The notes under the pieces were generated by a model that had not been told where the DNA came from, ran no database searches, and saw only the letters and a program-made list of their open reading frames with translations. A DNA stretch of 64,000 nucleotides from Dastarcus helophoroides (Eukaryota; Arthropoda; Insecta; Coleoptera; Bothrideridae). The position numbers and the translations under genes were made by a program. Shown here piece after piece: positions 25,430-63,546 of the stretch. Within the stretch, counting starts at the first letter, position 1. Each line of letters opens with the position of its first letter. The stretch lies in contig CM053333.1 in assembly GCA_028583605.1 (NCBI GenBank), positions 9,733,638 to 9,797,637 on the forward strand. Reading direction: 5' to 3'.

Positions 25430-25632
25430 AAGCGACTGCTCCTTGGTTATCTTCAAAAATTGAAATACATATCTTGTCCCATGAAACCAAGAAAGATTAA
25501 AAAACACAACAAATGTTGCTCTTACGCGTTTCAATAGCCAAGCTATCATCTTCAGAGAGATACTGAAGTTAGAGCAACCTTTGTTGTGTTTTTTAATCTT
25601 TCTTGGTTTCAGAGGACAAGATTTGTTTTTCG
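25430..25632. mobile_element. family A foldback insert, copy A1
   Basis: The left arm (minus sense) and right arm (plus sense) share GAAACCAAGAAAGATTAAAA and its reverse complement. The left arm keeps a hammerhead-like core; the right arm has lost it (CTGAAG runs straight into TTAGAGC). The left arm extends about 25 bp further, to CTCCTTGGTTATC. Confidence 0.85.
25525..25555 (-). ncRNA. hammerhead-like ribozyme motif, family A (copy A1)
   Basis: Minus strand: CTGAAGA box (25549-25555), hairpin GATAGC-TTG-GCTATT, then GAAAC (25528-25532). One nucleotide lies between the first box and the hairpin, and the first stem pair is weakened (G-T). The cleavage site and stems I and III were not established. 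Confidence 0.6.
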
Positions 25633-26127
25633 AATTTAACGTAAATTTCGAATTTTTTCCGCACTTTCAATTTTTTTAATTTCGAAAATTTTGAAAAATC
25701 TTGAATTTTTCACGAAACTATTGGTTGTTTTCGAAGATTGGCTCCTAGATATTTTGCTAGTTCAAAGTTGAAATGTTTATTGTTGTGGAAACTTCTAGGT
25801 TCTAGTTTAAATTTAAAAAGATATTTAAATTTACGGTCAAAGTTTCAAAAAATAATTAAAAATGAATTGTGAACTTTAATTTCAAGAAAAAATTTAAAGA
25901 TTTTGTAAAGAAAGCTTCAACCGTACGAAATTAGTTTAGAAATGTTGAATGTTTTACAAACCTTGACCCTTTTGTCAGAATATTAAGTTTAAATTTGTTC
26001 TTAAGAAGATTTCGAATTTAAAAACGAGATTCTAGAAAGAGGTAGAAAGTCTTCAATTAAATTCGAAAGTGCGAGAATTCAAAATAAAAATGTTCTTAGA
26101 AATTTCGATTCGGACATTTTGCTCAAT

Positions 26128-26640
26128 AAGTAGATAGACAGAGCCGATTCTAACCCCAAAATCCCATGCTTTTACTTATGGCGGTCCATCGTGGTTAAAT
26201 TTTTTTACCTTGAGTCAACTAAACAAGAAGCAATTAACTAAACAACTATACAACTAAATAACCAAATAAACAAGCAAGTAAACAATTTGTTAGTTGGTTT
26301 TAGTTGGATATTTAGTTCTTTAGTTGGTTGTTTAGTTGTATAGTTGGTTGGTAAAGACCATAGAAGGTTTTGATCCTTTACCGCATCGGCAATTAAACAA
26401 ATAATTACCCGATACGTATTTCACCAGCAGAACTGGCATTTTTAGGCGTACTAATCTTAATTGATTAACAAATCAGTACTTAGCTTAATTGATTTGTTAT
26501 TCAATTAAGATTAGTAGGTTTTAAAAAGTTGGTTAGTTGTTTATTGTTTCGTTGACTTGAGGTAAAAAAAATTACCACGATGAACCTCCCTAAGAAAAAG
26601 TATGGGATTTTGGACTAGAATCGGCTTTGCCTATCTACTT
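26128..26640. mobile_element. 513 bp foldback element (MITE-like) with about 95 bp inverted ends
   Basis: The ends are AAGTAGATAG and its complement; the two arms match for about 95 bp with roughly one mismatch in seven, including GCCGATTCTA, AAAATCCCAT and CATCGTGGT. Direct CAAT flanks both sides (26124-26127 and 26641-26644), a possible 4 bp target duplication. The centre is itself palindromic (CTTAATTGATTAACAAATCA against TTGTTATTCAATTAAG), and the arms continue into AACTAAACAA / TTAGTTG words. The element is non-coding. Confidence 0.85.
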
Positions 26641-26889
26641 CAATATTTTGAGTATATTATTTTGAATTTTTAGGAACTTAAGAATTTAGATTTCGACTTT
26701 AATCTCGAAATTTCAAGCTGAAATTATAATCACATTTAATTGTTTAGAAATTTGAAACTTTCACTTATTTTGACTTGAATCTCTGAATTTTAAATGCGTT
26801 TAATAAAGAATTGTTATACATAAATCAGATTCTAATATACCAAAATTTTCGTCAGTTTCACACAATTTCGAATTTAAAGTCAAAGTTTA

Positions 26890-27255
26890 AGTCTAAGGTC
26901 GAGAATTGGATTTTAAAGAAGATATTTTTATACAAAGAATGAACAATTTGCTACTTTAACTTTAAATTTTAAGAAAAAATGTACAATTTCTAGAAAAAAG
27001 CTCGGTGTTTCTAAAATTATTGCAGAAATGCTGGATGTTTTTGCTAATTTCTAGCTTTCTATAGAAATTTTTAGTCAAATTTTGAAATTTCTAATTACTT
27101 TCTTATGGTTTTGCCCTTTAAACTAGGAGACTTCAATAGTCAATCACGAGTGAAACTCGGAGACTTGAAGGCTGAAACAAGAGGGAAGCGATTTTGTTTT
27201 CCATTTTTAATTGTATCTTCAGCTTACACATGCTTAATATTTAGATGTGGACGAA
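26890..27255 (+). repeat. dispersed direct repeat R, copy 2
   Basis: This copy matches copy 1 from CTAAGGTCGAGAATTGGATT to ATATTTAGATGTGGACG. The GAATTCGAAACCATGC part is missing. Confidence 0.75.
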
Positions 27256-27479
27256 ATGGACGAAAAATTTAAGATTTTTCAGAGAAAGTCAAATTTAAAA
27301 AACAAATATGAGAAGATGATCGAACTTCACGAAAAAATTTTGAAAAAATGCATCTAATCTTGGTGAAAACTAGAAATTTCCAAGAAAGTCAAATTTGATC
27401 GTAATTTAGAAAAAAGTAAAATTTTAGGAAAAAAATGAAATTTAAAAAAAATCGAATTTTCCTGGCTAAATTTTTATTT

Positions 27480-28320
27480 TGGTTTGACTTCTCGAGTCAG
27501 AGTCAATGTGGCGTCAGAAAATATCCAAGGTTGGAATATACGTCGATTTTTTAATAAAGATAAGTCGAAACTCCGAGAAAAAGACGATATTACGAGAGAA
27601 CTTTTACGAAAAAGATTTAAATTTTGAGAAAAAACGTTTAATATCAGTGAAATTTAGAAATTTCTCAGAAATGATCAGATTTTATCGAAATTTAGAAAAA
27701 GAGCGAATTTTAAGAAACAATCGAATATTTATTTTCTCCTGACTCTTCGAGCCAGAGAAAGGCAGGCGCCCTACCTTATCTCAACAGCCGTTAGGCAATG
27801 TCAAATATTGTGATATACATCGAAATGTTGACAAACAAGTTGAAACTTCCAGAAATTTGGATTGAAGAACAGTGGAAATTTACAAAGAAAATGTTCTTCT
27901 AAATTCTGTACTTTACCAAAATTTAAAATTTCCAAAAAAATATATTTTTCAAGAGAAGATTGACCAAATTTCGAGTAAAAGGCAAATTTTAATAAAAAAG
28001 CCAAAATTTTCAGATTTAGAAAGCATCGAAATTTTCAAAAAAAAACGACAAATTTTTAAATAAGAATTAGAAATTTTGATAAAAGAAGTCAAATTTTGTG
28101 AACCAAAGCAAAATTTCAAAAATTTCAAAATAACAAGACAAATTATGTAGAAATATAGGAAATTTAAGGAAAAGTCTAATTTTCGAAAAAAATGCTTCAA
28201 TGGAAGAGTGCATTTTGAAGAAAACAAATTTTTGTAAACACTCGCCAAGTTGAATGCATATAAATTTTCGGTATACTGAATGAACCAGGGGGGGGCAAGC
28301 GCCCTACGCCTATGAAAGAA
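27480..28320. repeat. family G element, right-end units
   Basis: A unit ending in a GAGTCAG...GCGCCCTA type tail recurs (about 27490, 27745, 28285). The last one, GGGGGGGGCAAGCGCCCTA followed by CGCCTATGA, matches the tails at 44305-44350 and 60880-60920. Between them is A-rich satellite. Confidence 0.65.
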
Positions 28321-28489
28321 GCCATGAAAAAATCAGTTCATAAGTTTCTTGAAGACTCCAAAGTAAAACTTACAAATCCAAAGACACTGAATTTTTATTA
28401 TTTGAGGCAACGAATAAAAGAACAAAAAACTTAGATTTGTTATTTGATGTTCCGAAAACTATAAAACCAAGCTCACTCAAAAGTTTGGG

Positions 28490-28990: not shown

Positions 28991-29189
28991 TAATAAGAAA
29001 TGTTATTAATTTTAAATTTAACCTAAATTAAGCATTTCTTTCACACTTTGAATTATTTTTAATTTCGAATGTTTCCCGGAATCTTGAATTTTTCACGAAA
29101 CTACTGATTGTTTTCGAATATTTGCGCTTCAAAATTTGCCTTTATGTTCATCTTACTTAATTTTTAGTTAAATGATCGGGAAGAAAGTC

Positions 29190-35490: not shown

Positions 35491-35510
35491 AATTTTGAAT
35501 TTTTATCAAG

Positions 35511-35735: not shown

Positions 35736-35847
35736 CGGTTTCAATTTATTTTGAAGAATCCGAAATTCTGTAGAAAATGTTATTTTTTTTGAAAATTTTG
35801 CTCTGAAGCGTTTACGTATTATTTCCAGTATTTTTAATGTCTAGTTA

Positions 35848-36022
35848 GAAATTAAAATACAAATCTTGTTCTCTGAATCCAAGAAAGATTGAAAAACACA
35901 ACAAGGGTTGCTCTAACGCGTTTCGATATCCAAGTAATCATCTTCTTCTTTCTTGGTTTCAGGGGATAAGATTTCTATTTCAATTTTTGAAGATAATCAA
36001 GGACCAGTCCGTTGCACCAAAA
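35848..36022. mobile_element. family A foldback insert, copy A2 (damaged core)
   Basis: The left arm runs from AATTAAAATACAAATCTTGT to the stem-loop at 35921-35945. The right arm has been cut back to TTTCTTGGTTTCAGGGGATA and then runs through GATAATCAAGGACCAGTCC to about 36018. The ribozyme-like core is damaged: CTGAAGA reads AAGAAGA, and the hairpin has mismatches. Confidence 0.8.
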
Positions 36023-36960: not shown

Positions 36961-36964
36961 ATCT

Positions 36965-38900: not shown

Positions 38901-41130
38901 CTTCCTAAATAACCCATATCAGGAACATTAAATGTTCGTTAATGTCAAATAATTTCTTAAAATTGGATGACTTTTTGCAGAATGGAAACAATTTTAAAAA
39001 ACAGTTATTAAGAAATCGATAATTAAAGTTTGGCACTAATTTATAAATTACCAGTACAATTTTGCACAAGGCGACGAATTTCGAAAAAAAAAAATTGTAG
39101 AGAAAGTCGAATTTTGAGACAAAATCCAAATTTTGAGAAACGTAAATTATGAGAAAGAGAAATCTTAAACAAAAAGTCAAAATTTTAACAGGACGGATTT
39201 TGAGAAAAAAGTTGAGATTTTCAGAAAATCACAATTTCGAAAAAAGACGAATTTTGACAAAAATGTGAAAATTTTTAGAAAAAACGAATTTAGAAGAGGT
39301 CCTCATTGAAGAAATATTAACATAAATATCAGATTTTGGACTAAACATAAAATTTCGATAAAAAGTCAAACTTTAGGAAAACAGTTAAAATCTTTAAAAA
39401 GGTAGATTCTGGAAGGTAAACCTTTTTATAAAAAGAGTAATATTAAAAAAAACGTAATTTTCAAAAAAAGGCAAAACATTTTGTATTCCCTCGTTTAGTT
39501 TTTTTCTTTTATCTGAAGTTTTAAAGGAATAATCTTAATTTCGATTTACTGTAGTTTCGGCATATTTATCAAAGTTTTAATATAAATTTTGGGTATAGGC
39601 GTAGGCCGGATTTCGTTCAGGGAGGGAAATGAATCATTTTAAAAATTGTTTAAAAAATCCGGAAAACTTTCCTGTTGAGTAAATGTCTATTTTCATTCAA
39701 CTACATGAACTGAGGAATCGAATTTTCAGATTAATTTTGTAATTTGGAAATAAAGCCGAACTTTGCAAAAACAGTTAGAAAATTGAATTTAATATAAAAA
39801 CCGAACCTTTCGGAAAACTTCGAAAACTATCGGAATTTCAAAGATTTCGAAAAATAACGATTTTTGTAAAATACCGTCGAAATCTCGGGAAAAAGGTTGT
39901 AATCTCTTGAAGAAAAGTGACCATTTTCAAGAGAAAGTTTAATTTTGAAAAAACCAATTTTGGGAAAAAGTTGGAATGTTTAGAAAATCGTGTTTGAAAT
40001 GAAATCGTAACCTTTCGAAAAATCACAAAAAATGTTAAAAATTCAAAAAATTATATTTTTAAAGGTGGAGTTTTGTGAAAAAAAGACGCAATTTTCAGAA
40101 AAAGTTGGAACTTTGAGAAACATTTTTCACTGTAAGTGGGGATTTCCAGATTTCCAGATTTGAAGTACGAGCCAAAATTTCTAGAATAAGACAAATTCTG
40201 AAAAACATTAAATTTTCGGAAATTTAAATTACAAAAAATTCGGAAAGAACCGAATAGTAAAGAAATGAACAATTGTGAGAGAAAAAGGAGAATAAAATCG
40301 CAATTTCGAAAGCGACGAATTTAGAGAAAAACCCTATTTTGGCAAAGGATTTTTTCAGAAAACCAAAATTGAATAAAAACCCAACCTTTCAGAAGAACTC
40401 GAAAAATGCTGCAAACTTTAAAAATACTAAGAGTAAGACAAATTTTGAGAAACATAAAATTTTCGGAAATTGAAATTTAAAAAACTTCAGTAAAAACCGA
40501 ATAGTAAAAAAATGAAAGTTCAATTGTGAAACAAAAAAGAGAATAAAGTCCTAATTTCGAAAGCGACGAATTTTGAGAAAAATGCTATTTTGGCAAAGGA
40601 TTTTTTGAGAAAACCAAAATTGAATAAAAACCCAACCTTTTGGAAGAACTTGAAAAATGCTGAAAACTTTAAAAATACTAATATATTTCCAAAGGTCAAA
40701 TATTGTGAAAAAACTTGCAATTTCAAAAATACTTTTCTCACAATTTTTTATTTTTTATTCTAACTTTGACATATTTAAATTTTAATAAAGAAATTGAATG
40801 TACAAGAAATCTTTTTTTCGAAATTACCCAAAATTATGTTTCTCAACATTTTTAATTTTCGATACTATGCCGATCTAATTAAGAGAAAACAGACGAATTT
40901 CGTGAAAACTGAAATTTAAAGGAAAAGGCAATTTCGGGGAAAAAGTCCAGAAAGTTCCAGAAATTAAAACATCGCATTTTGAAATAAAAGTTAACATTTT
41001 GAAAATAAGATAAAATATGTAGTTGAAGTTTCTGAAGTCAAATTTAAAAAAGTCACAATTTTAAAAAAAGGCAAATATTCAGAAAAATGGCAGCATTTTG
41101 ATAGAAAAAATGATATTCTCTGTAATTTAT
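38901..41130. repeat. A-rich satellite, left half of a family G element split by a PLE
   Basis: GAGAAAAAAGTCAAAATTTT-type words dominate. At 39593-39610 the family G start TATAGGCGTAGGCCGGATTT appears, followed by ACATGAACTG and TTTTCAGATTAA as at 30042. A 165 bp segment is nearly duplicated at about 40290-40430 and 40530-40670 (AATTTCGAAAGCGACGAATT in both). Confidence 0.65.
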
Positions 41131-41227
41131 TTGCGAACTATTCATATTTGTATGCAGTTTTATTGGCTTTTTCTTCGCCGGTCACTCCTTTCACAATCCT
41201 AAATTTCAGTACCTTCTATTAAGGAAT

Positions 41228-41385: not shown

Positions 41386-41420
41386 CGTTTCGGGCAGTGT
41401 TATTCTCTGCCCGTCGTCAG
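41386..41420 (-). ncRNA. hammerhead-like ribozyme motif, family C (PLE-linked)
   Basis: Minus strand: CTGACGA box (41414-41420), hairpin GGGCAG / CTGCCC with a 9 nt loop, then GAAACG (41386-41391). One nucleotide (C) separates the first box from the stem. Hammerhead ribozymes are known in the terminal repeats of PLEs, and this lies about 90 nt past the PLE stop codon on the coding strand. Only the catalytic boxes and stem II are evident by eye. Confidence 0.75.
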
Positions 41421-41507: not shown

Positions 41508-42788
41508 CTAGGTGATTCTAAGGCGACCCAGTTGTTTTTCTCGTTTTAACAATGGCAGCCACATACCATTAATATCAATCGAACAATTTGCGACACAGTT
41601 ATCTCCATTTAGTAAAATTAAAGCTGCTTCTTTAATTTTTCTTTTTTTATAATGTGTTTCTTTGCCAATAATGCAGGATTTTGTCCACTGAATTCTGTGA
41701 TCGTATTGAAAAGAGTGTTCGCAAATTTTCGATTTTGAAAAATCTCCCTTACTTAGGTAATTCTTATGTTCGTTAATACGAATCCACATAGGTCTGGATG
41801 TTTCACCTATGTAAATTTTGTTGCATTCGCAGGTTATTTTATAAATACAATTTTTAGTATGTTGTGTTTCATTTTTTGGTTTTGTATTTACTAGTAATGA
41901 TCTTAGAGTATTTTGGGTTTTGAATGCTGTACGTATATTGAACTTTTGGCCTATTCGTTTGATTTTATCCGAGAGACCTGGTATGTATGGAATAATCAAG
42001 GTTTTTTTATCTTGAATGTGTGATGTGTTTATGATGCCATGATTATGATTGTGTGATCCTGTTTCTCTTCTGTTTATAACTTTTTCCACAAAATCTTTTT
42101 GATACCCATTTTTTTGTAATACTGATGTAATATTAATTTTTTCTTTATTATATATTTCAGAACTCGTGCTGATATTTTTAGCTCTGTCAATTAAAGAAGT
42201 TATTACACCTATTTTTATATTTTTACTGTGATTTGATGTGTAATTTAGGTATCTATTTGTGTTTGTTGGTTTCCTATAAACAGATGTGTATATCCCATTT
42301 TGGCCCCTCTCAATTAACACATCGAGAAAGGGTAGTTTATTATCTAATTCAATTTCCAATGTAAATTTTATCGTTTGTTCTTGTTCGTTTATGAAGTTTA
42401 AAAATGGATTTATAGTATCTATTGAATGAGGCCAGATGGCAAACACATCATCTACATATCTCCACCAGACAAGTGGTCTTTGACTATAGTTCAGTATGAC
42501 TTTCTCCAGTTCTTCCATAAAAATATTAGCCATAAATGGTGATAACGGCGAACCCATCGCCATACCAAATTCTTGCTGATAGAATTCACTGTCTGTTTGG
42601 AAATATGTTGTTTTTACACAGAGTTGAATAAGACCCATAATGGCATCTACATCTAATTTTGTCTTATCTTTGAGACTTTCATCATTTGTGAGTTTATTTT
42701 TTATTATTTCTAGAGTTTTCTCTACAGGTACATTGGTGAAAAGACTGACCACACACCAAACAGTCGACATTTCTAGAAAAACTACCAA
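41508..42788 (-). CDS. PLE reverse transcriptase with GIY-YIG endonuclease, N-terminally truncated
   Basis: The open frame is 426 codons. RT motifs: SLFTNVP (residues 15-21), GMAMGSPLSPFMANIFME (75-92) and the catalytic YVDD (111-114, followed by VFAIW), then the LPFLDV segment (152-157) and YRKPTNTNRYLNY (171-183). The C-terminal GIY-YIG nuclease begins IYKITC (315-320) and KIYIGET (324-330), with R337 and E387 at the places of the catalytic Arg and Glu. PLEs copy RNA at a nicked target using these two activities. Complete PLE proteins are roughly twice as long; the N-terminal third to half, including the first catalytic Asp region of the RT, is missing. The first residues up to about WC are encoded by the flanking satellite, so the ATG is accidental and the product would be inactive on its own. 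Confidence 0.9.
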   Translation of the reverse strand: MVVFLEMSTVWCVVSLFTNVPVEKTLEIIKNKLTNDESLKDKTKLDVDAIMGLIQLCVKTTYFQTDSEFYQQEFGMAMGSPLSPFMANIFMEELEKVILNYSQRPLVWWRYVDDVFAIWPHSIDTINPFLNFINEQEQTIKFTLEIELDNKLPFLDVLIERGQNGIYTSVYRKPTNTNRYLNYTSNHSKNIKIGVITSLIDRAKNISTSSEIYNKEKINITSVLQKNGYQKDFVEKVINRRETGSHNHNHGIINTSHIQDKKTLIIPYIPGLSDKIKRIGQKFNIRTAFKTQNTLRSLLVNTKPKNETQHTKNCIYKITCECNKIYIGETSRPMWIRINEHKNYLSKGDFSKSKICEHSFQYDHRIQWTKSCIIGKETHYKKRKIKEAALILLNGDNCVANCSIDINGMWLPLLKREKQLGRLRIT

Positions 42789-44352
42789 ATGAAGTATTAA
42801 AGATCGAAATTTTCTAGAAAAAATTCAAAGAAGAAGAAGTATAATTTTGAGAATAGTTGTTTATGAAAAAACGAATTTTGAAAAAAAGTCAAAATTTTAA
42901 GAAAGATACGAATGTCTAGGAAAAATATTTAGTTTTCCGGGAACATACGGAACGGGATTTTAAGATAAATTTGAAATTTTCAAAAAAAGACGGATTTTGA
43001 GAAAAATATCCATGTTTCGATTTTTTAAATTCGTTTTTGAAAATTTCGATTTTTTTTTCTTTGAAAAACAAAAAAAAGATCAAAATTTTGAGAAAAATGT
43101 CGAAATTTAGTAAACACTCGAAATTTTTCAGGGAGAGTCTAATTTTGTCAAAATCTTAAAAATTTTAAAAAAATATCGAGAAAAAGGCAAATTTTAAGAA
43201 ACCTGTCACAGTTTTTGAAAAATCAAATTCCAAAAGATCAAAATTCAGAAAAACCTGATGTTAATAAAACTAAAGGAATTAACAAAAAACGAAATCTCTG
43301 AAAAACAGTCGACATTTCTAGAAAAATTCCCGAATGAAGCATCAAAGATCGAAATTTTCCAGAAAAAATTCAAACTTTAAGAAGAAGTATAATTTTGAGG
43401 ATAGGCGTTTATGAAAAAACCAATCTTGAAAAAAAGTCAAAATTTTGAGAAAGATACGAGTTTCCAGGAAAAATATTCAGATTTCCGGGAATATACAGGA
43501 TGGGATTTTAAGATAAATTTCAAATTTGCGAGAATTGACGAATTTTGAGAAAAATATCCAAATTTTGATTATTCTAAATTCGTTTTTGAAAATTTTGATA
43601 TTTTTCCTTGAAAAACAGAAAAAAAGATCAAAATCTTGAAAAAAAAGTCGAAATTTAGTAATCAAAATTTTTCAGAGAGAGTCTAATTTTGTCAAAATTT
43701 TGGAACAAGGACAAATTTTGAGAAAAATGTAATTTCTAGAATTTTCCTTGACCGCTTGAATCAGAGGCAGACATGCGCCCTGATCTGGCTTACCCTTAGT
43801 CAGAAAATGTCCAATAATGATATAAACGTCGAAATTTTGAAAAGCAATTTGTATTTTAGTTATAAACCATTCCAGAAAAAATTTTCTCGGAATTTTTGTC
43901 TTTTTACAAAATTTCTAAAAAAGTTATTGTAAAAATTTCCAGATAAATATTTTTATCAAAATATCGATCAAATTTTAAGGAAAACGGTAAATCTTGATAA
44001 AGAAGTAATAATTTTCAGAAAATTCAATTTTAAAGAAAAGCCGAAGTTTCCGAAAAAAATGAATTTTGAGATAAAAATTCGAAATTTTGATTAAAATCGG
44101 ATTCTGTTGACAGAAATCAAATTTTGGAAATAAATTTGAAATTTCGACAAAAATTTCTGAAAGAAGATGAATTTTGAGAAATAAGTCGAAATTTCGAGAA
44201 AATGTCAATAGCTTAAAGAAGAACGAATTTTGTCGAATGGAAATTTTTTAGAGAAAGTCTTCTCAGTTGAATATAAATTTTTGTTTAACTGCATGAGTCA
44301 GGGGGGGGCAAGCGCCCTACCCTGCCCTATTCTAAAAACACCTATGATTTTG
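42765..44352. repeat. A-rich satellite and right end of a family G element
   Basis: A segment of about 540 bp is tandemly duplicated: CAGTCGACATTTCTAGAAAA occurs at 42762 (where it overlaps the PLE junction) and at 43308, and the following 400 bp match. A GCGCCCTGATCTGGC tail occurs near 43770 and the main tail, GGGGGGGGCAAGCGCCCTA then CCTGCCCTATTCT and CCTATGA, at 44305-44348. The last 560 bp match 60355-60920. Confidence 0.7.
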
Positions 44353-44462
44353 GAAAATTGAAATATAAATGTTGTCCCTTGAAACCAAGAAAGATTAAAA
44401 AACACAACAAAGGTTGCTCCAACACGTTTCGACAGCCAAGCTATCATCTTCAGAGAGATACT
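44353..44462 (-). mobile_element. family A insert, copy A3 (single arm) with 12 bp target duplication
   Basis: CCTATGATTTTG flanks the insert on both sides (44341-44352 and 44463-44474). The insert is one arm of family A, in minus sense: it starts AGTATCTCTCTGAAGATGAT and ends near TTCAATTTTCC. Because the duplication is exact, this copy fixes both ends of the single-arm form: the 5' end lies about 10 nt before the CTGAAGA box. It landed in the tail of the family G element. Confidence 0.9.
44425..44453 (-). ncRNA. hammerhead-like ribozyme motif, family A (copy A3)
   Basis: CTGAAGA (44447-44453), hairpin GATAGC-TTG-GCTGTC, GAAACG (44425-44430), all on the minus strand. The first box lies about 10 nt from the exact 5' end of the insert, as expected if the element RNA had been trimmed by a hammerhead, which cuts just upstream of stem I. 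Confidence 0.65.
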
Positions 44463-44474
44463 CCTATGATTTTG

Positions 44475-46725: not shown

Positions 46726-47560
46726 TGTTACGGTTTTTGGAAACAACGATTTTTTTAAAAGTGGACTTTTTTCAAAAATTCAACATGTTTTAAAATTTTG
46801 TTTCAAAATTTTTTTACCAAAATTTGACTTCTCTCAAAATTTAAACTATTTTGAAAATTTCGGCTATCCTTCAAAAGATCAACTGGCATAAAGCAAAATG
46901 CGTTTGTTTAAATATCGACTATTTTTAAAAATTTTGAATTTCATCAAAAATTTAGGTATTATTTTCAATTTTTCTTTGAAAATTTCGACTTTTTAAATCA
47001 TCGAGATTTTAAGCAGCTTGAATTTTTGAAAATTTCTACATTTTTTTTAAAATTTAAACATTATTTTTTTATTTCCAATTCAAATTTTGGGTTAAGAAAA
47101 AGTGTTTGACTGTTTTGTACATTTATCCAAAATGTTAGAATATTAATTTTTCAATATTTCTACTAACCTAAAACATTTCTACTTTTCTGATAATTTTGAC
47201 ATTTCTTCAAAATTTAAACTGTTCGAAAATTTTGCGCTTTTTTTTGAAAATTTGTCTCAACATTATTTCTATATTTTGACTATTTTTGAAATTTTAAACT
47301 ATTTTTCAACTATTTCTTAGTGAAGGTTCTGAAGATTTTAAATTATAAAAAGAAATATATCTACCTTTTTAGGTTTAGGTTTTTGAAATGTTTAGTTTCT
47401 TCTTAAAATTCCGAGTTTAAATGTGAAACATAATTTTTTTCTCTAAAATTTTGATTTAAAACTTGAAATCTATGCACTTTTTTAAAAATTTATAATTCTA
47501 TTTCCAAAAATTTGAACTCTCTTTTTTAAGTTTAAACCCAAAATTCTGAAAAGAGATGAG
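46726..47560. repeat. T-rich degenerate satellite
   Basis: Plus-strand form of the window-wide motif, strongly degenerated, without usable period. Confidence 0.6.
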
Positions 47561-48015
47561 ATTTTTGTTGAACTTTGGAAACAAAAAATTGAAATTTATG
47601 TACGTTGCGTTATTTTTTTCAACATCAAAACGCCCATTAAAAATGAACTTAAAGAACTCAATGGAACAAGAACGTTCAAACAACCTCACTTCAATGAACT
47701 TTGAAAATGATTTTTTTAAGAATATTGATTTGACTGTGTTTTTACCAAATCTGCTGCAGTAATAAATCACGAATAGTGTGTTATTTTATTGTATGTCCTA
47801 AACATTATAATAAAATCAAAGGGTCTTCTGTCCCCATTTGCTACAGGCTCCGAGGTGGCTTAATTCTGGACTGATTTGATTTGGGATTTCAGTCAAAAAC
47901 TTCGTAAAATAAAGACAGGATATTTGTAGAATCACGAATTATTCAACAGAAATAAAGAAATGCATCAAAATCCAGTGGTTTTATTTCTTTACTAACCATG
48001 GAAGTCTCCTATTTA
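47561..48015. other. complex sequence, no gene seen
   Basis: Two small frames on opposite strands (47498-47770) overlap and resemble nothing known. Confidence 0.35.
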
Positions 48016-48122
48016 ACAATTGAAATACAAATCTTGTTCCCTGAAACCAAGAAAGATTAAAAAACACAACAAAAATTGCTCTAACACGTTGCGATAGCCA
48101 AGCTATCATTTTGAGAGAGAAC
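48016..48122 (-). mobile_element. family A insert, copy A4 (single arm, core mutated)
   Basis: This is the same single-arm layout as A3. The core is destroyed: on the minus strand CTGAAGA reads CTCAAAA and GAAAC reads GCAAC, although the hairpin GATAGC-TTG-GCTATC still pairs. No clear target duplication could be seen. Confidence 0.8.
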
Positions 48123-51075: not shown

Positions 51076-52258
51076 TAACGAATGAAAATACTAATACTTT
51101 GCAAAGAAGCAACAGCTGCAATAGAGGCAATGATAGGTCTGATTCCTGTTCACATTTGTGTGAAAAACGAGGCAGCGCTTAGTGCCTCAAAGCTATTTCA
51201 ATCGAACACGCTAAAACCGGGTGACTTGGTTGGCTACGGACGGATTGTGGGGAAAATTCCACTGGGATCCATTGCCAAACCAATAAATCAAATGCCTACA
51301 AAACTGGACTTTGTTATTCCATACGAAGTGGTTATCGGAGAAAGCCCGACATGGAATAGACACAGGAAAAGGCTAGCAAACAACGCATCTGTCTGGTACA
51401 CGGACGGATCCAAACAAAGAGAAGGACTAGGAATATGGGGTCCTAATTTAAGACTCTCTGAACCCCTAGGAAACACTCCAACACTCCCACAATTTTTCAA
51501 GATCTGTGAGCGAAAGAGTGCCTTCAAAAAGGACTCAGAAACGTACAGGTTTATATTGTTTCAGATAGCCAGGCTGCATTAAAGACTCAAAGTCGTTCAG
51601 AACCGAGTCAAAAAGGGGAATGCAAACAATTTCTGAAGCAACTGGCTGTAAACAACAAAGCAACTTTGATGTGGGTTCTAGGGCATCAAGTCATAGAAGG
51701 GAACGAAGAGGCAGATAGGCTCTCAAAAGAGGCTTCAGTCACACCTGTCTTCAGCCCAGTACCATACTGTGGTCTTACAAAACCCACGTAAAATATGAAA
51801 TATATACTTGGGAGACAAACCAAAGACTGTTATGTTGGAGGAAAACTCCAGGCCTAAGACAGTCAAAAAAGTTCATCACTAACTTAAAAAAGAAGTCTGA
51901 GCAGCTTCCCAAACTAAACAAGGACGACTTAAGAATAATAACGGGACCTTTTATACGACACTTCCCAGTAAAGTATCAGTTTAAGAAGGTGGGAAAAGTG
52001 GATGATGAAAACTGCAGATTCTGTAACGCAGCAACAGAAACAACAGAACACCTGCTATGCGAATGTATGGCTCAGTTCTGTAAAACGCTCAAAATTTTTG
52101 AAAGGGTGACCCTGACACCCCAAGAAATAAAAGAAACAGCTCCTAAAAAGATAATGGACTATGTAAAGAGTCTAGATATCTTGGGCTATGATTAAAAAAT
52201 TAGAGTCTGCACAGAAGATCCTAATGGGTCGCAGTGCTGAGAGATTTACATCTCTCAG
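51076..52258 (+). pseudogene. I-clade LINE, 3' part: RT end, RNase H and CCHC-like C-terminus
   Basis: Joined over frames: IEAMIGLIPVHI (end of RT thumb), SVWYTDGSKQREGLGIWGP (first RNase H motif with catalytic Asp, about 51390-51446), VYIVSDSQAALK (second Asp region, about 51547-51582), ATLMWVLGHQVIEGNEEADR (His and last Asp, about 51662-51721), and the tail VDDENCRFCNAATETTEHLL with CEC (about 51997-52066), a Cys/His knuckle, ending at the TAA at 52193. RNase H plus this tail is typical of I/R1/Loa-type LINEs. Frameshifts near 51500 and a stop at 51789 disable it. The 3' UTR is interrupted at 52259 by a family B insert and probably resumes at 52789. Everything upstream (ORF1, endonuclease, RT core) is absent. 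Confidence 0.8.
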
Positions 52259-52348
52259 TATGATAACGAAGGCTTCCACGGCCAGAGTCAGTACAGGATA
52301 TACTTCTTCCGGGATTGGACCGTGTCAAAGAACTACTAAAAGTGTTCA

Positions 52349-52382
52349 ACGTTTCGCCCACCATTATAGGGGGCTTCTTCAG
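52349..52382 (-). ncRNA. hammerhead-like ribozyme motif, family B, left arm
   Basis: Minus strand: CTGAAGA (52376-52382), one A, stem GCCCCC with loop TATAAT closing on GG(T)GGGC with a bulged T, then GAAACG (52350-52355). Confidence 0.6.
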
Positions 52383-52684
52383 GAACAAAGAAAAGAAAAC
52401 AATAAATAAAAAGGGAAATATAAGGGAATATGCAAAAATGAAGGAATGAAAAGGCCAATTTCAAAACATCAGAGCACGGTAACTCAGTATGTGCACCATA
52501 CCAGAGCCAAAACTCTTCTGAATTGAAAGTTGGTATAAAGGATAAGACAGTTTAGAGAGAAGAGCACGGTAACTCAGTGTGTCCACCATACCAGAGGCGA
52601 AACACTTTTTGGCCTTTTCATTCTTTCATTTTTGCATATTCCTTTATGTTTCCCTTTTTATTTATTGTTTTCTTTTCTTTGTTC

Positions 52685-52716
52685 CTGAAGAAACCCCCTA
52701 CGATGGTGGGCGAAAC
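52685..52716 (+). ncRNA. hammerhead-like ribozyme motif, family B, right arm
   Basis: Plus strand: CTGAAGA (52685-52691), stem around loop TACGAT closing on GGTGGGC, then GAAACG (52712-52717). The base pair next to the core is lost (A against C), so this arm should fold less well than the left one. Confidence 0.55.
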
Positions 52717-52788
52717 GTCGAATACTTTTAGTAGTTCTTTGATACGGTCCCATCCCGGAAGAAATATATCCTGTATTACATCTCTCAG

Positions 52789-55070: not shown

Positions 55071-55599
55071 CCTGTGCTCAAGCGAATTCCGTTCCCTCCG
55101 TTCGTCAGTTGTAAATACAATGAGTAAGCAAGAGGTTCATCCGCACGTTGCGCAGCGCATTACTATTAAACTCCTTGCCATTGAAGTTGTAAATTTAGCC
55201 GTAATTCTTCGTAGAGTAGAAGCGCAGTTTAGGGATACTTATTTGAAGAAAACTCAAGTGTATGAATGGCACAAACATTTTTGAAAGGACGAACTCAATT
55301 TGAGAATGAACCCCATGCCCGTCATCCTCAGACCAGTGTGACTGCGAACAAGATTAACGCTGTTCAACGCCTTTTGGAAGGTGATCGCCGTTTAATTGTT
55401 GGTGAAATTGCAGCTCAGATAGGTAGAAGCTTTAGGAGTGCTCAATCCATCATTACAGATGGGCTGGGGTTTCGAAAAATTTCTGTCAGGTAGGTACCTC
55501 GTCTTTTGACTAAAGAACAGAAAGAACAACAATTGAAATACAGAACTTGTCCCCTGAAACCAAGAAAGATTAAAAAACACAACAAAGGTTGCTCTAACG

Positions 55600-55628
55600 C
55601 GTTTCGACAGCCAAGCTGTCATCTTCAG
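55600..55628 (-). ncRNA. hammerhead-like ribozyme motif, family A (A5, left arm)
   Basis: CTGAAGA (55622-55628), hairpin GACAGC-TTG-GCTGTC with six perfect pairs, GAAACG (55600-55605), on the minus strand. Confidence 0.65.
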
Positions 55629-55643
55629 AGAGAGAGTTTCTAT

Positions 55644-55671
55644 CTGAAGATGACAGCTTGGCTGTCGAAAA
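55644..55671 (+). ncRNA. hammerhead-like ribozyme motif, family A (A5, right arm)
   Basis: CTGAAGA (55644-55650), hairpin GACAGC-TTG-GCTGTC, GAAA (55667-55670). The next bases are AGCAGAGC where other copies have CGCGTTAGAGC, so the region expected to form stem III differs. Confidence 0.55.
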
Positions 55672-56360
55672 GCAGAGCAACCTTTGTTGTGTTTTTTTAA
55701 TCTTTCTTGGTTTCAGGGGACAAGTTTTGTATTTCAATTTATAAAGATAACCAAGGACCAGTCCGTTCCACCAAAAAAGAAACAACAACGTCTGGAGATT
55801 TGTCGGCGACGTCTTCAACGTGAAGTTGATGGTTTTTTGCAAGGTCTCGTTACGTGTGATGAGACTTGGGTCCACCATTACACCCCTGAATCTAAAGAAG
55901 CAAGCATGGAGTGGCGAAGAAAGTGAGAAGGTGCACCCATCAAGGCAAAAACTCGCCTCTCAGCTGGAAAGGTTCTTGGAACAGCGTTTTGGGATTTTAA
56001 AGGAGTTGTGCACGTCGACTTTCTGCATGAACATCGTACGGTTAATGCTGCCTAATACTGCCAGCTATTGGATGAAGCCAAACGTCCATATCGGTGGAAG
56101 AGGCGCGAATTTTCGGTCAGATATGTGATTTTGCTTTACGGCAATGCCCGCCCCCACTCAATCTAACACATCAAAAATTAGAGAAAATGCATTGGGCAAT
56201 ATTAGAACACCCTTCTTATAGTCTCGACTTATCACTATGCGATTATCATATGTTTGGGCCCCAGAAAGAAACCCTCAGAGATGAGCGATTCCATGATGAT
56301 GCTGCTGTTGAGACATTCGTGCGCAATTGGCTGCAAACCTTCTTTTTATGATGATGGCAA

Positions 56361-57611
56361 ATTTCTACAAGAAATTTCAAAGTTTCTAATCATTTTTGAG
56401 AGAAAAAGTAGAATTTTAAAAAATAAAGTCGTAATTTTGAAAGCGACGAATTTCGAGAAAAAACCATTTTTGAGAAAGTCGGTTTATTTGGAAAGCCAAA
56501 TTTTGAATAAAAAGCCTCCCTTTCTGAAGAAATCGAAAAATATTGGAAATTCTAAAAATGCCAAATATTTCCAAAATTCGAATATTCCGCAAAAATTTGG
56601 AATTTCCAAAAACATTTTTCTCGAAATGTTTCCTTCTTCAATCTAATTTTGAAATAATATTTAAATTTCGATAATGAAATTTAATGTCCAAGGAATCTTT
56701 TTCTTGAAATGACCGCAAAAAATATTTCTCTCAACATTATTAATTTTTTGATAACATGCCAATCTTATTTTGAGCAAACAGATGAATTTCAGAAAAACGA
56801 AATTTCAAGAGTTAATTTCGAGGAAAAAGTCGACATTTCCAGAAACTAAAACTTGATTAATTTTGAAATTAATGTCGGGATTACAAAAATAAAGCAAAAT
56901 ATGAAGTTGAAATTTCTAGAGTCAAATTCAAAAAAGTCGAAATTAAAAAAAACACAAATATTAGGAAAAATGGCAGGATTTTGACAAAAAAAATGATTTT
57001 TGAAAGAAAAGTCTAAAAAGTAGAATTTTGAAAATAAAGTAAACATTTCGAAAAAGACGAATTCAAACTGATTTTAAGAGAAAAATTCGAAATTTTCGAA
57101 AAAGTTAAATATCGAATTTTGAGACTAAAATAAAAATATTTAGAAAAAACCAAACTTGAAGAAACCAATCAAAATTTCTGAAAAATCAAATTCTAAAAGA
57201 TCAAAATCTTTTGATGCTGATAAAAATAAATTTTGAAAAAAAAAAATGAAATCCCGGAAAAACAGTCAAAATTTCTAGAGCTGCCAAATGAAGTAAAAGA
57301 TCAAAGTGTTCCGGAAAAGTCAAATTTTACGAAAAAGGTACAATTTTGGGAATAGTCGTTTGTGAAAAAAAAAGAATCGTGAAATAGTCAAAATTTTAAG
57401 AAAAAGACAAATTTAGAATAAAAATATCCAGATTTCCGGGTGCATACAAGATTGAATTTCGGGATAAACTTAAAATTTTTGAAAAAAGACGGATTTTGAG
57501 AAAAATAACGAAATTTTGGTTATTTAAATTTGTTTTTTTCTGGAAATTTCGAATTTTTGTCCTCTTTAAAAACAAAAATGAATTTAAAATTTAACGATTA
57601 AAGTCGAAATG
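56361..57611. repeat. A-rich degenerate satellite
   Basis: This block resembles 40290-41110: GAAAGCGACGAATTTCGAGA, GAAGAAATCGAAAAAT and GGCAGGATTTTGAC words recur in the same order, so the two are copies of one unit. It ends against the start of family H at about 57612. Confidence 0.65.
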
Positions 57612-60345
57612 TTAGTTACAAAGGCGAAGAAAGGACATCGATTGAAAAAAATGTTATTTTTAGCAATTTCGACTTCTTTGTTAAATTTCGACTTTTTTTT
57701 CTCAAATTTCGACTTCTTCTGGAAATTTCGACTTTTTCCTGGAAATTTCGACCTTAATCTCGAAATTTCGACTTTTTTGTTCAAATTTCGATTTTAAACT
57801 TGAAACTTTAACTTTTTTCTCGAAATTTCGAGTTTTTCTCAAATTTCGACTTTTTTCTTGAAATTTCGACTTTTTTCTCGAAATTTGGACTTTTTTTCTC
57901 AAATTTCGATTTTTTTTTCTCGACATTTCGACCTTGATCTCGAAATTACGAATTTTTCTCAAATTTTGACTTTTTTCTCGAAATTACGACACTTTTCTCA
58001 AATTTCGACCTTTTTCTCGAAATTTCGAGGTTTTTCTCAAATTTGGACTTGTTTCTCGAAATTTCGTTTTTTTCTCAATTTTATACTTTTTTCTCAAATA
58101 TCGACCTTTTTTTCAAAATTTTGACTTTAATATCGAAATTCCGACATACCTTTAGAAATTTCGTCTTTAAACTCAAAATTTCGACTTTTTTTCTCAAAAT
58201 TTCGACTCTTTTTCCCGATGTTAGACTTTTTTTTCTCAAAATTTCGACTTACGTTTTTTTTAAATTTCGACTTTTGTTCTCGAAATTTTAACTTTTTTCT
58301 CCAAATTTCAACTTAATTTTTTTTTTAATTTCGACCCTTTTTGCGAAATTTCATCCTTAATCTCGTAATTTCGACTTTTTTCTTAAAATTCGACCTTTTT
58401 TCTCGAAATTTCGAATTTTTCCTCGAAATTTCAACTCTTTTCTCAAATTTCAACTTTTTTCTCGAAATATTTCGAAATTTCTACTTTTTTCTCGAAATTT
58501 CGACATTTTTCTCAAAATTTTGACTTTTTTCTCAAAATTTCGTTTTATTTTCCTCAATTTGCGACTTATTTTAAAATGTAGGCTTTTTTTCTCAAAATTT
58601 CGATTTACGTTTTTCTTAAATTTCGACTTTTGTTCTCGAAATTTTGACTTTTTTTCTCGAAATTACAACTTACGTTTTTTTTTTAAATTTCGACATTTCT
58701 TCGCGAAACTTCGACTTTTTTCTCGAAATTTTAACTTAATTTTTTTCTCAAATTTCGACTTTTGTTCTCGAAATTTCGACTTTTTTTCTCGAAATTTCGA
58801 CTTATGTTTTTTTTTAAAATTTGACATTTTTTCGCGAAATTTCGACCTTAATCTCGAAATTTCGATTTTTTTCTCAAATTTCGACTTTTTTCTCGAAATT
58901 TCGACCTTTTGCTCGAAATTTCGGCTTTTTTTCTTGAAATTTTGACTTTTTTTCCGAATTTCGACTTTTTTTCTCGAAATTACGACTTACTTTTTTTTTT
59001 AAATTTCGACCTTTCTTCGCGAAATTTCGACCTTATTCTCGAAATTTCGACTTTTTTCTCAAATTTCGACTTTTTTTCTCGAAATTTCGACTTTTTTCTC
59101 GAAATTTCGACTTTTTTCTCGAAATTTCGACTCTTTTCTTAAATTTGGACTTTTTTCTCGAAATATTTCGACTTTTTTCTCGACATTTCGGTGTTTTTCT
59201 CAAATTTTGACTTTTTTCTCGAAATTTTGTTTTTTTATTCAATTTTCGACTTTTTTCTCAAATGTCGACTTTTTTCTCGAAATTTTGACTTTAATACCGA
59301 AATTTCGACATTTTTCTCGAAATTCGACTTTAAAGTCAAAATTTCGGCTTTTTTCTCGAAATTTTGACTCTTTTTCTCAAATTTCGACTTTTTTCTCGAA
59401 ATTTTGATTTTAATACCGAAATTTTGACATTTTTCTCGAAATTTCGACTCTTTTTCTCGAATTTCGACTTTTTTCTCGAAATTTTGACTTACATTTTTCT
59501 CAAATTTCGACTTTTGTTCTCGAAATTTCGGCTTTTTTTCTCGAAATTTTGACTTACGTTTTTTTTAAATTTCGACATTTCTCCGCGAAATTTTGACTTT
59601 ACTCTCGAAATTTCGATTTTTTTCTCAAATTTCGACTTTTTTCTCGAAACTTGGTTTTTTCTTCTTCAATTTTCGACATTTTTCTCAAATGGCGACTTTT
59701 TTCTCGAAATGTTGACTTTAATATCGAAATTTCGACTCTTTATCTCGAATTTCGAGTTTTTTCTCGAAGTTTTCACTTACGTTTTTTTCAAATTTCGACT
59801 TTTGTTCTCGAAATTTTGGCTTTATTTCTCGAAATTTCGACTTTATCTATGAAATTTCCTCAAAAAAAGTCGAAAGTTGGGAAATAAAGTAGAAATTTCC
59901 ACCTTAATCTCGTAATGTTCAGTTTAAACTTTATATTTCTAAGTTAATTTTTATAAATTAATGCTCTTTCCACATCTTCGTTAAAAAACCAAAAATACAT
60001 ACATAAAAAACAAAGCAAAAGATAAATATATGTATCGGATCTTTCTAATTAGGAATAAATAATTAAAAAATAAATATTAGTGTTTAAAATCCAAGAAAAG
60101 ACTTGTAAAATTAAATTACAATGTTTCTACTTATCACGAGATGGCACGGCGCAAATTTTTTACTTGGTTGTAAACTGTGGAGCTGTGCGTTAAATTATAT
60201 TGGTGAATTACTTAACAAACTTATTGCTATTAAATAGTAAAATGTAAATTACCGTATTTTTGGGTACGGTATTGGTATTTGGACCGTACACCGTATTTTT
60301 GTCAGAATTACAGTACATATACGGTAATTACCGTACATATGGCAA
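57612..60345 (+). repeat. family H repeat, copy 2 (uninterrupted)
   Basis: The copy starts GAAAGGACATCGATTG, carries an expanded satellite (57650-59900), a short AT-rich stretch, and the terminal module from TTATCACGAGATGGCACG through ATTACCGTATTTTTGGG to CGGTAATTACCGTACATATG. It supplies the empty site for the 8.4 kb element of copy 1. Confidence 0.75.
57650..59900 (+). repeat. regular satellite of the TTTCGACTTTTTTCTCGAAA unit
   Basis: This is the most homogeneous block of the window's motif, with a period of about 20-21 bp and many near-exact units. Each junction forms the perfect palindrome TCGAAATTTCGA between pyrimidine runs. A longer pattern with ACTTACGTTTTTTTT appears at about 58248, 58610, 58668, 58987, 59556 and 59772. 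All open frames in it (up to 141 codons) reflect composition. Confidence 0.9.
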
Positions 60346-60925: not shown

Positions 60926-61165
60926 CAGTGTCGGTCACGATCGACCAAAAGTATTGTTGGCCATTCCTGGTATAGAGGAACCATGTTGATATTTTACAAA
61001 TTCTGCAAATCACTTTTGATGTTCGATTTTTTGGACAGATTCCGAATGATTTATTCGAATACTATCTCGTAAACCGATTGTACTGAAGAATCTATGCAAA
61101 CATGACATGATTTAAAAAAATTCTGGTTTCTGGTTTGGTAGTTAATCACTATAATCAGCTGCTGG
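60926..61165. other. complex sequence upstream of the GC-rich island
   Basis: Ordinary AT-rich DNA. CTATAAAACG at about 61169-61178 is a TATA-like word at its right edge. Confidence 0.35.
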
Positions 61166-61624
61166 TACTATAAAACGAACCTACGAACTTGTCTAGGTAA
61201 ATTTTGGGTTTGCAGTTTGTTGGGTTTGCTAACAGAATCAGCGTTTTATACGGGGGTTGACTGAGCGTAATCTCGAGCATATGGGCGGATTTGTTTAATT
61301 TTAATCGGGTCGAAATGGCAGCATCAATAGATAAGCGCGGCCATGATTCGGTCGAGCTCATAACCGCAAGATAACGCAAGGTTCTCGAAGCGCGGATGCA
61401 CGAGACGAGGGATGAGAGTAAGACCGCTCTCCCACGTAGGCGCGAGAAGCGAGATGGAAGGATCCGGCCGATCGCGGGGCTCGGAGGCTGAACGCGAGAA
61501 GGTTCAATCAGAGACTTGCGCCGGTGGTTCTTTCTTCGAACCGAACGCAAGACGGCGAGAAACGGAAGGCGAATGGTACCGGCGCACCCACTCCTTACCG
61601 CGGACTAGCTGCCTTGCCGCAACT

Positions 61625-61664
61625 AACAGTCAGTAGAGTATTAGTTCGAAACATCTGTAGACGT
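61625..61664 (+). promoter_or_regulatory. possible Inr + DPE core promoter
   Basis: TCAGT at 61630-61634 fits the arthropod initiator with A at 61632 as +1. AGACG lies at 61659-61663, exactly +28 to +32, and fits the downstream promoter element consensus RGWYV at the required spacing. No TATA box lies 30 bp upstream. The surrounding 61.3-61.9 kb is CpG-containing and unlike the rest of the window. Confidence 0.45.
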
Positions 61665-61888
61665 TGCTAGTATGTGATTGATTCCACCAAAAAGTTGCTG
61701 GAGTGGCCAGAAAAGTGCGGAACGATGACGATCATGCACATTTTGTCGCGAAGTGGCGCGTAGTCCGAGGTGTCCGCCGTAAACGCTCTCCCGTCTCGCG
61801 GCCGGGAACGATCCACCTGTCTGGGACGCGGCTACCCGTCGAGGAGGGGACAAAGGGAGCGCAATCTGCGGCCCACTACGTCTCACAG
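61632..61888 (+). other. possible first exon of a plus-strand gene
   Basis: From the putative start at 61632 the sequence remains GC-rich to CACAG|GTAACT, a good splice donor at 61889. An ATG at 61703 opens a frame (MARKVRNDDDHAHFVAKW...) that runs through the donor; I do not recognise it, so the exon may be 5' UTR. Any further exons would lie beyond the window, as none was found up to 64000. Confidence 0.35.
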
Positions 61889-63401
61889 GTAACTGCCGTC
61901 ATTTTCGATTTTCAATGATTACAATAGTACCTGTTATGCAGACAGACCTGTTCATCGAGTATTGTCACACTTGATCTTGAATGGTCCCCTACTTACTACT
62001 TACAGCTGGCCAGATAGGGATGCGATTCCCGTACGTACGACGAATTTACACATATTTTATCTGAGCTCCGTGGAGCAACACGCCCAGAATATTTAATTAC
62101 ATTTGGTATCTCCGTCCAATCGGGCTCGTTATCGATTGGACGTTGTTGACGTTCTTATCCAATCCCGTTACGCAGACACATATGAATTTTAAATCCAAAT
62201 CCCAGTCCCGGTCGCTTAACGTAGCGTTGAAGTCTCCAAATATTGTTTGCTTTCAACGAAGCTTAATTAGACGAACAATTAAAAATTTCCATTTCAGTGT
62301 TTGTTACTATGTATGAATATATTAATTATTACATTTTATTATTTCCTCCGAGTAGAGCGCCTGATAATAAAGATAAATTCTTCAAGGGTACCAGCGAGCG
62401 TTACGTAGGTACCATCAACACTTCGGTAATAAAATAGTAATTTGGTTTTCTACCGCAGTTTTTGTTTTGTTTACATTCACGGTTTATCGAGCGTAAATGC
62501 GGCAATTTCCGTCTAGCGTACTATTTTACACGTAAAAACCGAAACCAGTATCTACTATTTTAGGTTAGGTCAGTTTCTGCAACGAGATGGAAAACGTTAT
62601 TGGCCCATCTCGATGCCAACTGGAAAGAAAATATTTTTTAATTTTAATTTAATTTGTTTTAATTTTAGAATTATAACTTTTGAAAAATCATTCAGGGTAC
62701 CATGAACACTTCACGTGACTGTAAACAAGTATATTTCTGAGAGGTTGCCACTTTTACTGCCATTAATGAGCGATCAAGTTTTAAATATAAAAATAAATGA
62801 ACTATGTACTGAATATGCACGAATAAGGTTCTTGGTCTTGGTAATACCTACTACTTGATCACGTAATTATTACTAATTTTGGAATAGTAAAAGATAAGAC
62901 TTTATTAACAAAAGCTCCACAAGATGTAGCTCTCTTCTCAAAGTATTAAGGTCGGGGTTATGGTTAGGTTTTTTTTTTCACCAACTCTGAGGAGTCAGCA
63001 CAATAGCCACAGCTTCTGTTTATTGAATTTAAAGTCTGACACTATCATCAAAAACATGCTCATGTCATTTTCAACCTGATTTCCATTTTTGAGAGAATTA
63101 CTTCCTAATAAGAAGATAAACGAGGAACAACGATCAGAAAGTGCTGATGTAGAAAGTTGCCTTGCATTATTTTGGTGGATAACCCAGTTCCTAGTTTCTT
63201 TCCCATATTCTTCATCATTTGCTTCAGGATAGCACGATGGAATTTTGCATTAATTATTACGACCTGCAGTGATTAAACATATAAGTCTTAGGAAAACATA
63301 TCAGTAATACCTTATTGTTTAGATTTGATAAGCTCCTGTTTTAGACTTGATAAGCTCCTTTGGTCTTCTCCATTGGAATACTATTGTTTGATCCTGAGTT
63401 T
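61889..63401. other. complex sequence, possibly intronic, no exon seen
   Basis: If the preceding exon is real this is first-intron DNA. No recognisable protein segment or element was found. TTAGGTTAGG at about 62571 is a two-copy telomere-like word only. Confidence 0.35.
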
Positions 63402-63546
63402 GATGGAACGGACTGGTCCTTGGTTGTCTTCAAAAATTAAAATACAGAACTTGTCCCCTGAAATCAAGAAAGATTAAAAAACACAACAAAGGTTACTCTA
63501 ACGCGTTTCGACAGCGAAGCTGTCATCTTCAGAGAGAAAACATCAC
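63402..63546 (-). mobile_element. family A insert, copy A6, single arm with extension
   Basis: GATCCTGAGTTT (63390-63401) and GATCCTAAGGTT (63547-63558) look like a 12 bp target duplication with two differences. The insert carries the extended end (GGAACGGACTGGTCCTTGG at the left) and one arm in minus sense, with an intact core. Confidence 0.82.
63504..63532 (-). ncRNA. hammerhead-like ribozyme motif, family A (copy A6)
   Basis: Minus strand: CTGAAGA (63526-63532), hairpin GACAGC-TTC-GCTGTC, GAAACG (63504-63509). The loop differs from other copies (TTC for TTG), while the six pairs are kept. Confidence 0.65.

Follow-up and report, generated by a model that had tools for sequence, protein, structure and literature searches.

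A stretch of 64,000 nucleotides from the beetle Dastarcus helophoroides (assembly GCA_028583605.1, contig CM053333.1, positions 9,733,638 to 9,797,637; hereafter the window, with positions counted from its first letter) carries hammerhead-like ribozyme motifs of three families, A, B and C, most of them on short inserts. The locus raises two questions: what kind of mobile element do the inserts derive from, and does the ribozyme leave a trace in the way they are inserted? We consider it likely that the motifs are minimal hammerheads of Penelope-like elements (PLEs), that families A and B are short 5'-truncated products of such elements, and that hammerhead-cleaved RNAs often served as the templates of B. 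Elements of this kind are already known, and the point of interest is the cleavage footprint: insertions with 5' ends at the predicted cut. No earlier report of such insertions was found in the open-licence literature searched, and a prior description is possible.

Hammerhead motifs and their parent elements

The eight hammerhead-like motifs claimed in a preliminary description of the window are all present where it had placed them. Such motifs far exceed chance expectation: a pattern of CTGANGA, a stem II of at least 4 bp and GAAA is matched nine times in the window, against a mean of 0.35 (maximum 2) when the window was simulated 60 times with a first-order Markov model in 4-kb blocks. When a correctly placed UH cut site and a stem I of at least 4 bp are added to the pattern, five matches stand against a simulated 0.017. 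Seven of the nine core matches belong to the eight copies, and the other two, at 47329 and 60707 on the plus strand, form 0–1 pairs in stem I. The copy at 52685 is not among the nine because the basal pair of its stem II is A-C. The cut site is lost in the 55644 copy (GAAA-AGC-AGAGC), and the first pair of stem I is mismatched in the 41386 copy. Beyond the eight, the window contains a pair of B copies (19623–19717), a pair of A copies (35845–36022) and a degenerate A copy (48012–48120).

Genome-wide searches covered a 539-Mb assembly of 50 contigs, and L-numbers denote loci elsewhere in the same genome. A loose motif pattern returned 49,995 matches versus 8,365 for its reversed control, a count that mixes many families and likely includes coding false positives. 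One motif type, CTGATGACGAGAG (L066, L067), was discarded as a spurious match of the loose pattern: by eye, it sits in an apparent retrotransposon coding stretch. Exact anchors of A (26-mer), B (19-mer) and a further family D (21-mer) have 10,524, 3,756 and 5,818 matches, respectively, with the arms of one pair counted separately and no matches for any of the reversed controls.

By sequence, A, B and C belong to the minimal type I hammerheads typical of PLEs. With an arrow at the predicted cut, family A reads TCTCT-CUGAAGA-u-GACAGC-UUG-GCUGUC-GAAA-CGCG-UU↓AGAG, family B GUUC-CUGAAGA-a-GCCC...GGGC-GAAA-CG-UC↓GAAC and family C UUUU-CUGACGA-c-GGGCAG...CUGCCC-GAAA-CG-UU↓AAAA. Each contains the hammerhead core (CUGANGA and GAAA, with stem II between them) and one extra nucleotide after A9. 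The sequences directly before C3 and after H17 are complementary and provide stem I: TCTC(T)/AGAG in A, GTTC/GAAC in B and TTTT/AAAA in C, where the 41386 copy has TTTT/CAAA and most other copies seen have TTTT/AAAA. A stem III of several pairs is absent from all three families, leaving A15.1-U16.1 and at most one further pair possible. PLE hammerheads are usually minimal and lack helix III, according to the available portion of PMC6155905.

Three other families of this genome, D, E and F (L058, L062, L064, L065), are canonical type I hammerheads with stems of 4–6 bp, and the copies read lack the extra nucleotide. A viroid hammerhead with an extra core nucleotide was reportedly described by De la Pena and Flores in 2001, to go by the title, and its position is said to be after A9; there a single viroid is concerned, whereas here A, B and C all have the nucleotide. 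Judging likewise by the title, Lunse et al. 2017 deals with small PLE-associated hammerhead variants that cleave as dimers.

The parent of family B lies elsewhere in the genome, at L171. An open frame of 824 aa with a reverse transcriptase (RT) is surrounded by direct repeats of 329 bp (99.7% identity), each with a B ribozyme, and the locus also has an inverted partial copy with arms 99.85% identical. The longer pieces of B in the window match the L171 repeats at 84–90%. As judged from these matches, family B is the terminal repeat (pLTR) of the L171 PLE. A 3.6-kb near-perfect palindrome (99.6%) at L173, positions 1547–5194, consists of two head-to-head copies of this PLE with one tail and a 14-bp duplication.

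The window contains a PLE frame of its own, which is 40% identical to the L171 frame. Its homology to another copy stops near 42753, and the best named relatives of its protein (55% identity) come from Exocentrus adspersus, a longhorn beetle. The preliminary description had placed family C just past a PLE frame, and the motif does lie about 90 nt beyond the stop codon; family C belongs to the window's own PLE. Direct repeats were absent from the C copies examined (L049, L050). In L050, a host ABC-transporter stretch adjoins another PLE copy; beetles (Ignelater, Leptinotarsa, Agrilus, Callosobruchus, Rhamnusium) are represented in its closest named matches, the top one of these is a partial match from Phytophthora, and further insects and other animals come after them. 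These relatives agree with a beetle host.

Family A has a unit of about 105 nt, or about 140 nt with its tail, and reads open from an AUG formed by A9, the extra U and G10.1 (by eye). Its layout is that of a PLE, with a start codon overlapping stem II, an optional tail and target duplications. In many A copies (e.g. 63399–63537), TTTCTTGGTTTCAG directly before G has the look of a 3' splice site; an intron close to the 5' end is said to occur in some PLEs.

The derivation of A and B from PLEs, proposed in the preliminary description, is therefore supported by the match of B to both terminal repeats of L171 and by the PLE layout of A. Its other suggestion, of retrozyme-like elements, is not supported, and 5'-truncated PLE ends describe the inserts better than separate elements do. 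We regard it as very improbable that A and B are retrozymes, that is, independent non-coding elements spreading via circular RNA. They are short, abundant and ribozyme-bearing, and tandem arrays with a repeat of ~665 bp and a family A ribozyme in their units exist at L068 (1–3401) and L069 (1–2201), yet most sampled copies are single or head-to-head rather than tandem, the motifs have the minimal PLE form, and B is a PLE's own terminal repeat. The co-occurrence of metazoan retrozymes with PLEs would fit a retrozyme origin. Other metazoan genomes resemble this one in having thousands of minimal type I hammerheads, with over 6000 type I motifs in the coral Acropora millepora. The non-long-terminal-repeat (non-LTR) retrozymes of metazoans carry canonical hammerheads on small tandem repeats that give circular RNA (all from the available part of PMC7229834). 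Families D–F may be retrozymes of that kind in this genome, whereas A–C look different, with minimal motifs and sampled copies that are mostly not in tandem.

Insertion ends at the predicted cleavage site

Enrichment of insertion 5' ends at the predicted cut was a test set beforehand, and its outcome is in favour for family B. A sample of 56 B copies was drawn with a 3' anchor independent of the ribozyme. With the cut at position 0, 30 of the 5' ends lie downstream of −48, and 21 of these 30 truncated copies end within 3 nt of the cut. Nine of the 56 end exactly at it, or seven without L138 and L139, duplicates that were kept in the count. Ends beyond +12 are invisible to this anchor, and junctions were therefore counted genome-wide with exact patterns of similar length. 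Junctions with both arms at the cut and a spacer of 0–8 nt are found at 33 loci, 11 of them blunt, with five of these 11 in one tandem array. The controls gave three loci each, one with both arms at least 8 nt upstream of the cut (spacer 0–16 nt) and one with both arms about 12 nt downstream (spacer 0–8 nt). A shorter and more permissive pattern for positions 0 to +6 gave 93 loci. Among the 50 of these that were listed, the commonest joint, seen 24 times, has one arm stopping at the cut and the other joined to it through a single base.

The position of the B ends suggests that the ribozyme works in the living animal; cleavage in vivo is here read from insertion ends. It fits the cleavage reading that the hammerhead is the lowest-energy fold in B, where the footprint is clear: stem I, of 5 pairs, and stem II form precisely as needed, and the core is free.

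The predicted cuts of families A and D were considered as well. Junctions of family A number 63 loci at the cut versus 15 downstream, a comparison that covers the downstream side only; some spacers among the 63 read as upstream element sequence, and a few of the loci are tandem duplicates. Some 5' ends of family D (L158, L160, L163, L164) lie 21–25 nt upstream of its cut, near a GATC palindrome, unlike those of B; L160 and L164 have a flank in common and do not count as independent. Several D and A rows in the 5'-end sample, which are internal deletions or have flanks in common, were not treated as separate ends.

Ends near a ribozyme could also arise without RNA cleavage, if the RT stalled at the folded ribozyme or if joining of the arms around it was driven by microhomology or a palindrome. 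Stem I occupies positions 0 to +4, some D ends lie at the palindrome rather than at the cut of that family, and the blunt B junctions are also readable as TCGA-mediated joints. Neither process accounts well for the remaining 22 of the 33 exact junctions, in which 1–8 nt stand between arms that each stop at 0 (in two of the 22, the spacer has the appearance of upstream element sequence). The commonest joint shares one base only, with one arm ending at 0, and a stall would be expected before stem I, at +5, rather than behind it. We therefore regard stalling or microhomology as an unlikely source of the B ends and prefer cleavage of the template RNA.

Paired insertions and the proposed mechanism

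The inserts frequently form head-to-head pairs with the ribozyme ends inward. The A sample comprises 39 pairs, counted outside the L106 array, versus 55 single 3' ends, one of which is cut off where the sampled sequence ends; the B sample comprises 24 pairs, with L138 dropped as a duplicate of L135, versus 32 other ends. Target duplications around the pairs measure 8–15 bp. A duplication of at least 8 bp was found by script around 22 of 33 A pairs (shuffled 5.3%), or 21 of 32 without L100, an overlap artefact with two ends 5 bases apart; this count left out L106, L088, L090 and the pairs of L036, L041 and L047. The corresponding count for B is 16 of 20 pairs (shuffled 5.8%), with L171 and L138 outside it. 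A second B set consisted of 20 hand-chosen loci, 13 with the commonest joint and seven with inserted bases at a cut junction. Four of the 20 are without a complete pair; the 16 complete pairs all have different flanks, and 15 of them have their own duplication.

The two arms of a pair differ in their 3' ends. One arm has a tail and the other does not in 31 of 39 A pairs (30 of 38 without L088, which duplicates L087 but was kept), in 23 of 24 B pairs, in all 16 pairs of the second B set and in four of four C pairs, the last examined by hand. The single two-tailed B row, L171, is a parsing error, as its right end at 4492 is tailless on reading.

Inverted arms and duplications are also features expected of a foldback miniature inverted-repeat transposable element (MITE), and family A might be one derived from a DNA transposon, with an accidental likeness to a ribozyme. 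The lowest-energy fold of A is not a hammerhead, and the only Rfam matches in the window are microRNA-like foldbacks and one U4-like stretch. Single A copies are nevertheless common, as the numbers above show, the arms are unequal, with a tail on one only, and the joints vary. The tail and duplication rules of A match those of B, which has a PLE parent. The MITE reading was rejected on account of the unequal, variable arms and the PLE parentage of B, although a related transposase was not searched for, and we consider it extremely unlikely.

Another possibility is that a small number of existing head-to-head pairs multiplied as units, in which case joints and single tails would be inherited and not made anew with every insertion. 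The recurrence of one joint at 24 of the 50 listed loci would follow from this, and tandem arrays of pairs do exist: the C10 array, and L106 (1–2001), an array of A pairs with a period of ~335 bp. The arms of one A pair are more alike than the arms of different pairs (0.791 versus a permuted 0.749 in 33 pairs, a value not reached in any of 5000 permutations). Amplified units do not agree with the different flanks and the individual duplications of the complete B pairs, or with the observations that the arm ending at the cut is sometimes tailed and sometimes not and that spacers differ. A copied unit would also be expected to carry the 5' flank of its source. We give this explanation little probability.

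We lean towards a mechanism in which PLE insertion is two-ended and uses hammerhead-cut templates, with both cDNAs joining at the scissile phosphate and the two ends obligately primed from different internal start sites. In the transcribed RNA, the ribozyme would stand where the upstream terminal repeat meets the start of the open reading frame (ORF), as in B and, by layout, in A. The element protein would start reverse transcription internally, at one of two sites shortly inside the ORF; the choice of site would yield a 3' end with or without a tail, and synthesis would run toward the 5' end of the RNA. Both DNA ends of a staggered cut would be primed, and the two cDNAs, nearly always one from each start site, would meet head-to-head between duplications of 8–15 bp. 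In family B, the hammerhead would have cut many of the RNAs before they served as templates; the cDNA would then end at the scissile position, and the joint would form at that point.

Several results weigh against PLE hammerheads and cut templates, and a first group concerns the fold. The lowest-energy fold of A has stem II, but its stem I is shifted by two and the CUGA core is paired; that of C is not a hammerhead, and its core is paired as well. Easy folding of these two alone is therefore disfavoured. The covariance-model search proposed in the preliminary description went against the motifs, as the Rfam hammerhead models have no match up to E=1 for A–C (window, L008, L010, L033, L048, L068). 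Rfam does detect loci of D, E and F (HH9-like, RF02275, E down to 4.7e-7, below the gathering score). Rfam matches to microRNA, FasX and U4 models, all below the gathering score, were taken as foldback or chance. Compensatory drift in stem II of A, also claimed earlier, holds for one pair, which in 94 copies is C-G in 37, T-A in 39, T-G in 12, C-A in 2 and another combination in 4. It does not hold for the other nine pairs examined (five in stem II, four in stem I), which are paired about as expected under independent sides, and copies therefore seem to decay freely after insertion. With covariation at just one pair, the case for the fold draws mainly on stems that are unrelated between families but complementary within them: by eye, the stem I sequences of A–F differ and yet are complementary where a hammerhead requires it.

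A second group concerns the elements and their ends. The parent PLE of family A was not found, and the B start codon in L171 lies within loop II rather than at the base of stem II. Pfam detects the RT domain PF00078 in both the window frame and L171 but, up to E=1, a GIY-YIG domain in neither; a GIY-YIG-like motif was seen by eye at the C-terminus of the window frame, and PF01541 is present in some relatives of this frame. In family A, the 49 anchor-sampled copies cluster only weakly at the cut, and 30 copies of canonical family D have no peak of 5' ends at the cut of that family. By script, five of the 39 A pairs are two-tailed and three are tailless, two of the latter being doubtful (L047 is mis-parsed, and L086 has part of a tail). 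In the available portion of a study of the Poseidon PLE PAc from Anolis carolinensis (PMC11167929), cleavage is unnecessary for insertion in vitro, no RNA ends were found at the cut in the datasets searched, and no difference in RT start sites was seen between the strands.

Related systems and further features of the window

The likeness of the Anolis element to those described here lies in its layout and in its two RT start sites. Its ribozyme is located at the pLTR–ORF junction, with the ORF beginning at stem II and the cut 26 bp into the ORF, and an optional tail lies between the two start sites. Both DNA strands are cut and extended in vitro, and the ribozyme cut only with its protein present (same portion of PMC11167929). 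By contrast, B insertions in Dastarcus end at the cut, and the two arms of a pair use different 3' ends.

A tail at one of the inverted pLTRs has already been described for the Penelope families of Adineta vaga, and the strictness of the one-tail rule is the addition made here. The Adineta families have few copies each, their palindromic joints are discussed as self-priming, the word "hammerhead" does not appear in the main text, and the available portion gives no counts for the tail rule (PMC3846280).

The features of the window are collected in Table 1. Directly before the B pair at 52259–52775, the interval 51079–52195 probably holds the remains of a non-LTR retrotransposon (weak zf-RVT match below the cut-off). 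Long open frames at 12896–17744 consist largely of pyrimidine-rich repeats (SSLLFSS-like) and probably represent a minisatellite and not genes. The interval 57000–60000 is densely filled with imperfect TCGAAATTTCGAC-like repeats that include many short inverted pairs.

Table 1. Hammerhead-bearing inserts, PLE sequences and target duplications in the window
Feature	Position	Strand	Remarks
Family B head-to-head pair	19623..19717		both arms start exactly at the predicted cut (before GAACAC); spacer 1 nt
Family A head-to-head pair	25422..25637		minus arm with tail and hammerhead 25525-25555 (-); plus arm begins ~2 nt from the cut
Family A head-to-head pair	35845..36022		one tail; 8-bp duplication AATGTCTA
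Optional 31-nt tail of PLE C	41113..41143	-	past the PLE C 3' end (41144)
Family C hammerhead	41386..41420	-	CTGACGA-c-GGGCAG/CTGCCC-GAAA-CGTT
5'-truncated PLE open frame (family C)	41508..42824	-	438 aa stop to stop; reverse transcriptase PF00078
Duplication CCTATGATTTTG	44341-44352 and 44463-44474		flanks the A copy 44354..44462; read by eye
Family A single copy	44354..44462	-	hammerhead 44425-44453 (-); without tail
Family A single copy	48012..48120	-	hammerhead core decayed
13-bp duplication TTACATCTCTCAG	52246-52258 and 52776-52788		around the B pair 52259..52775
Family B head-to-head pair	52259..52775		minus arm with tail, plus arm without
Family B hammerhead	52349..52382	-	stem I GTTC/GAAC
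Family B hammerhead	52685..52719	+	basal stem II pair mutated to A-C
Family A head-to-head pair	55528..55776		hammerheads 55600-55628 (-) and 55644-55670 (+, cut site lost); one tail
Family A single copy	63399..63537	-	hammerhead 63504-63532 (-) and tail

In the one reconstituted PLE system, that of Anolis, insertion did not depend on cleavage; the insertions found here at the predicted cut speak for a use of the hammerhead in vivo. If the proposed reading is true, the PLE hammerhead would have a role in the living animal in making short non-autonomous insertions. The one-tail rule constrains models of PLE insertion, and the B element, which has recent insertions with inverted arms 99.85% identical, is testable.

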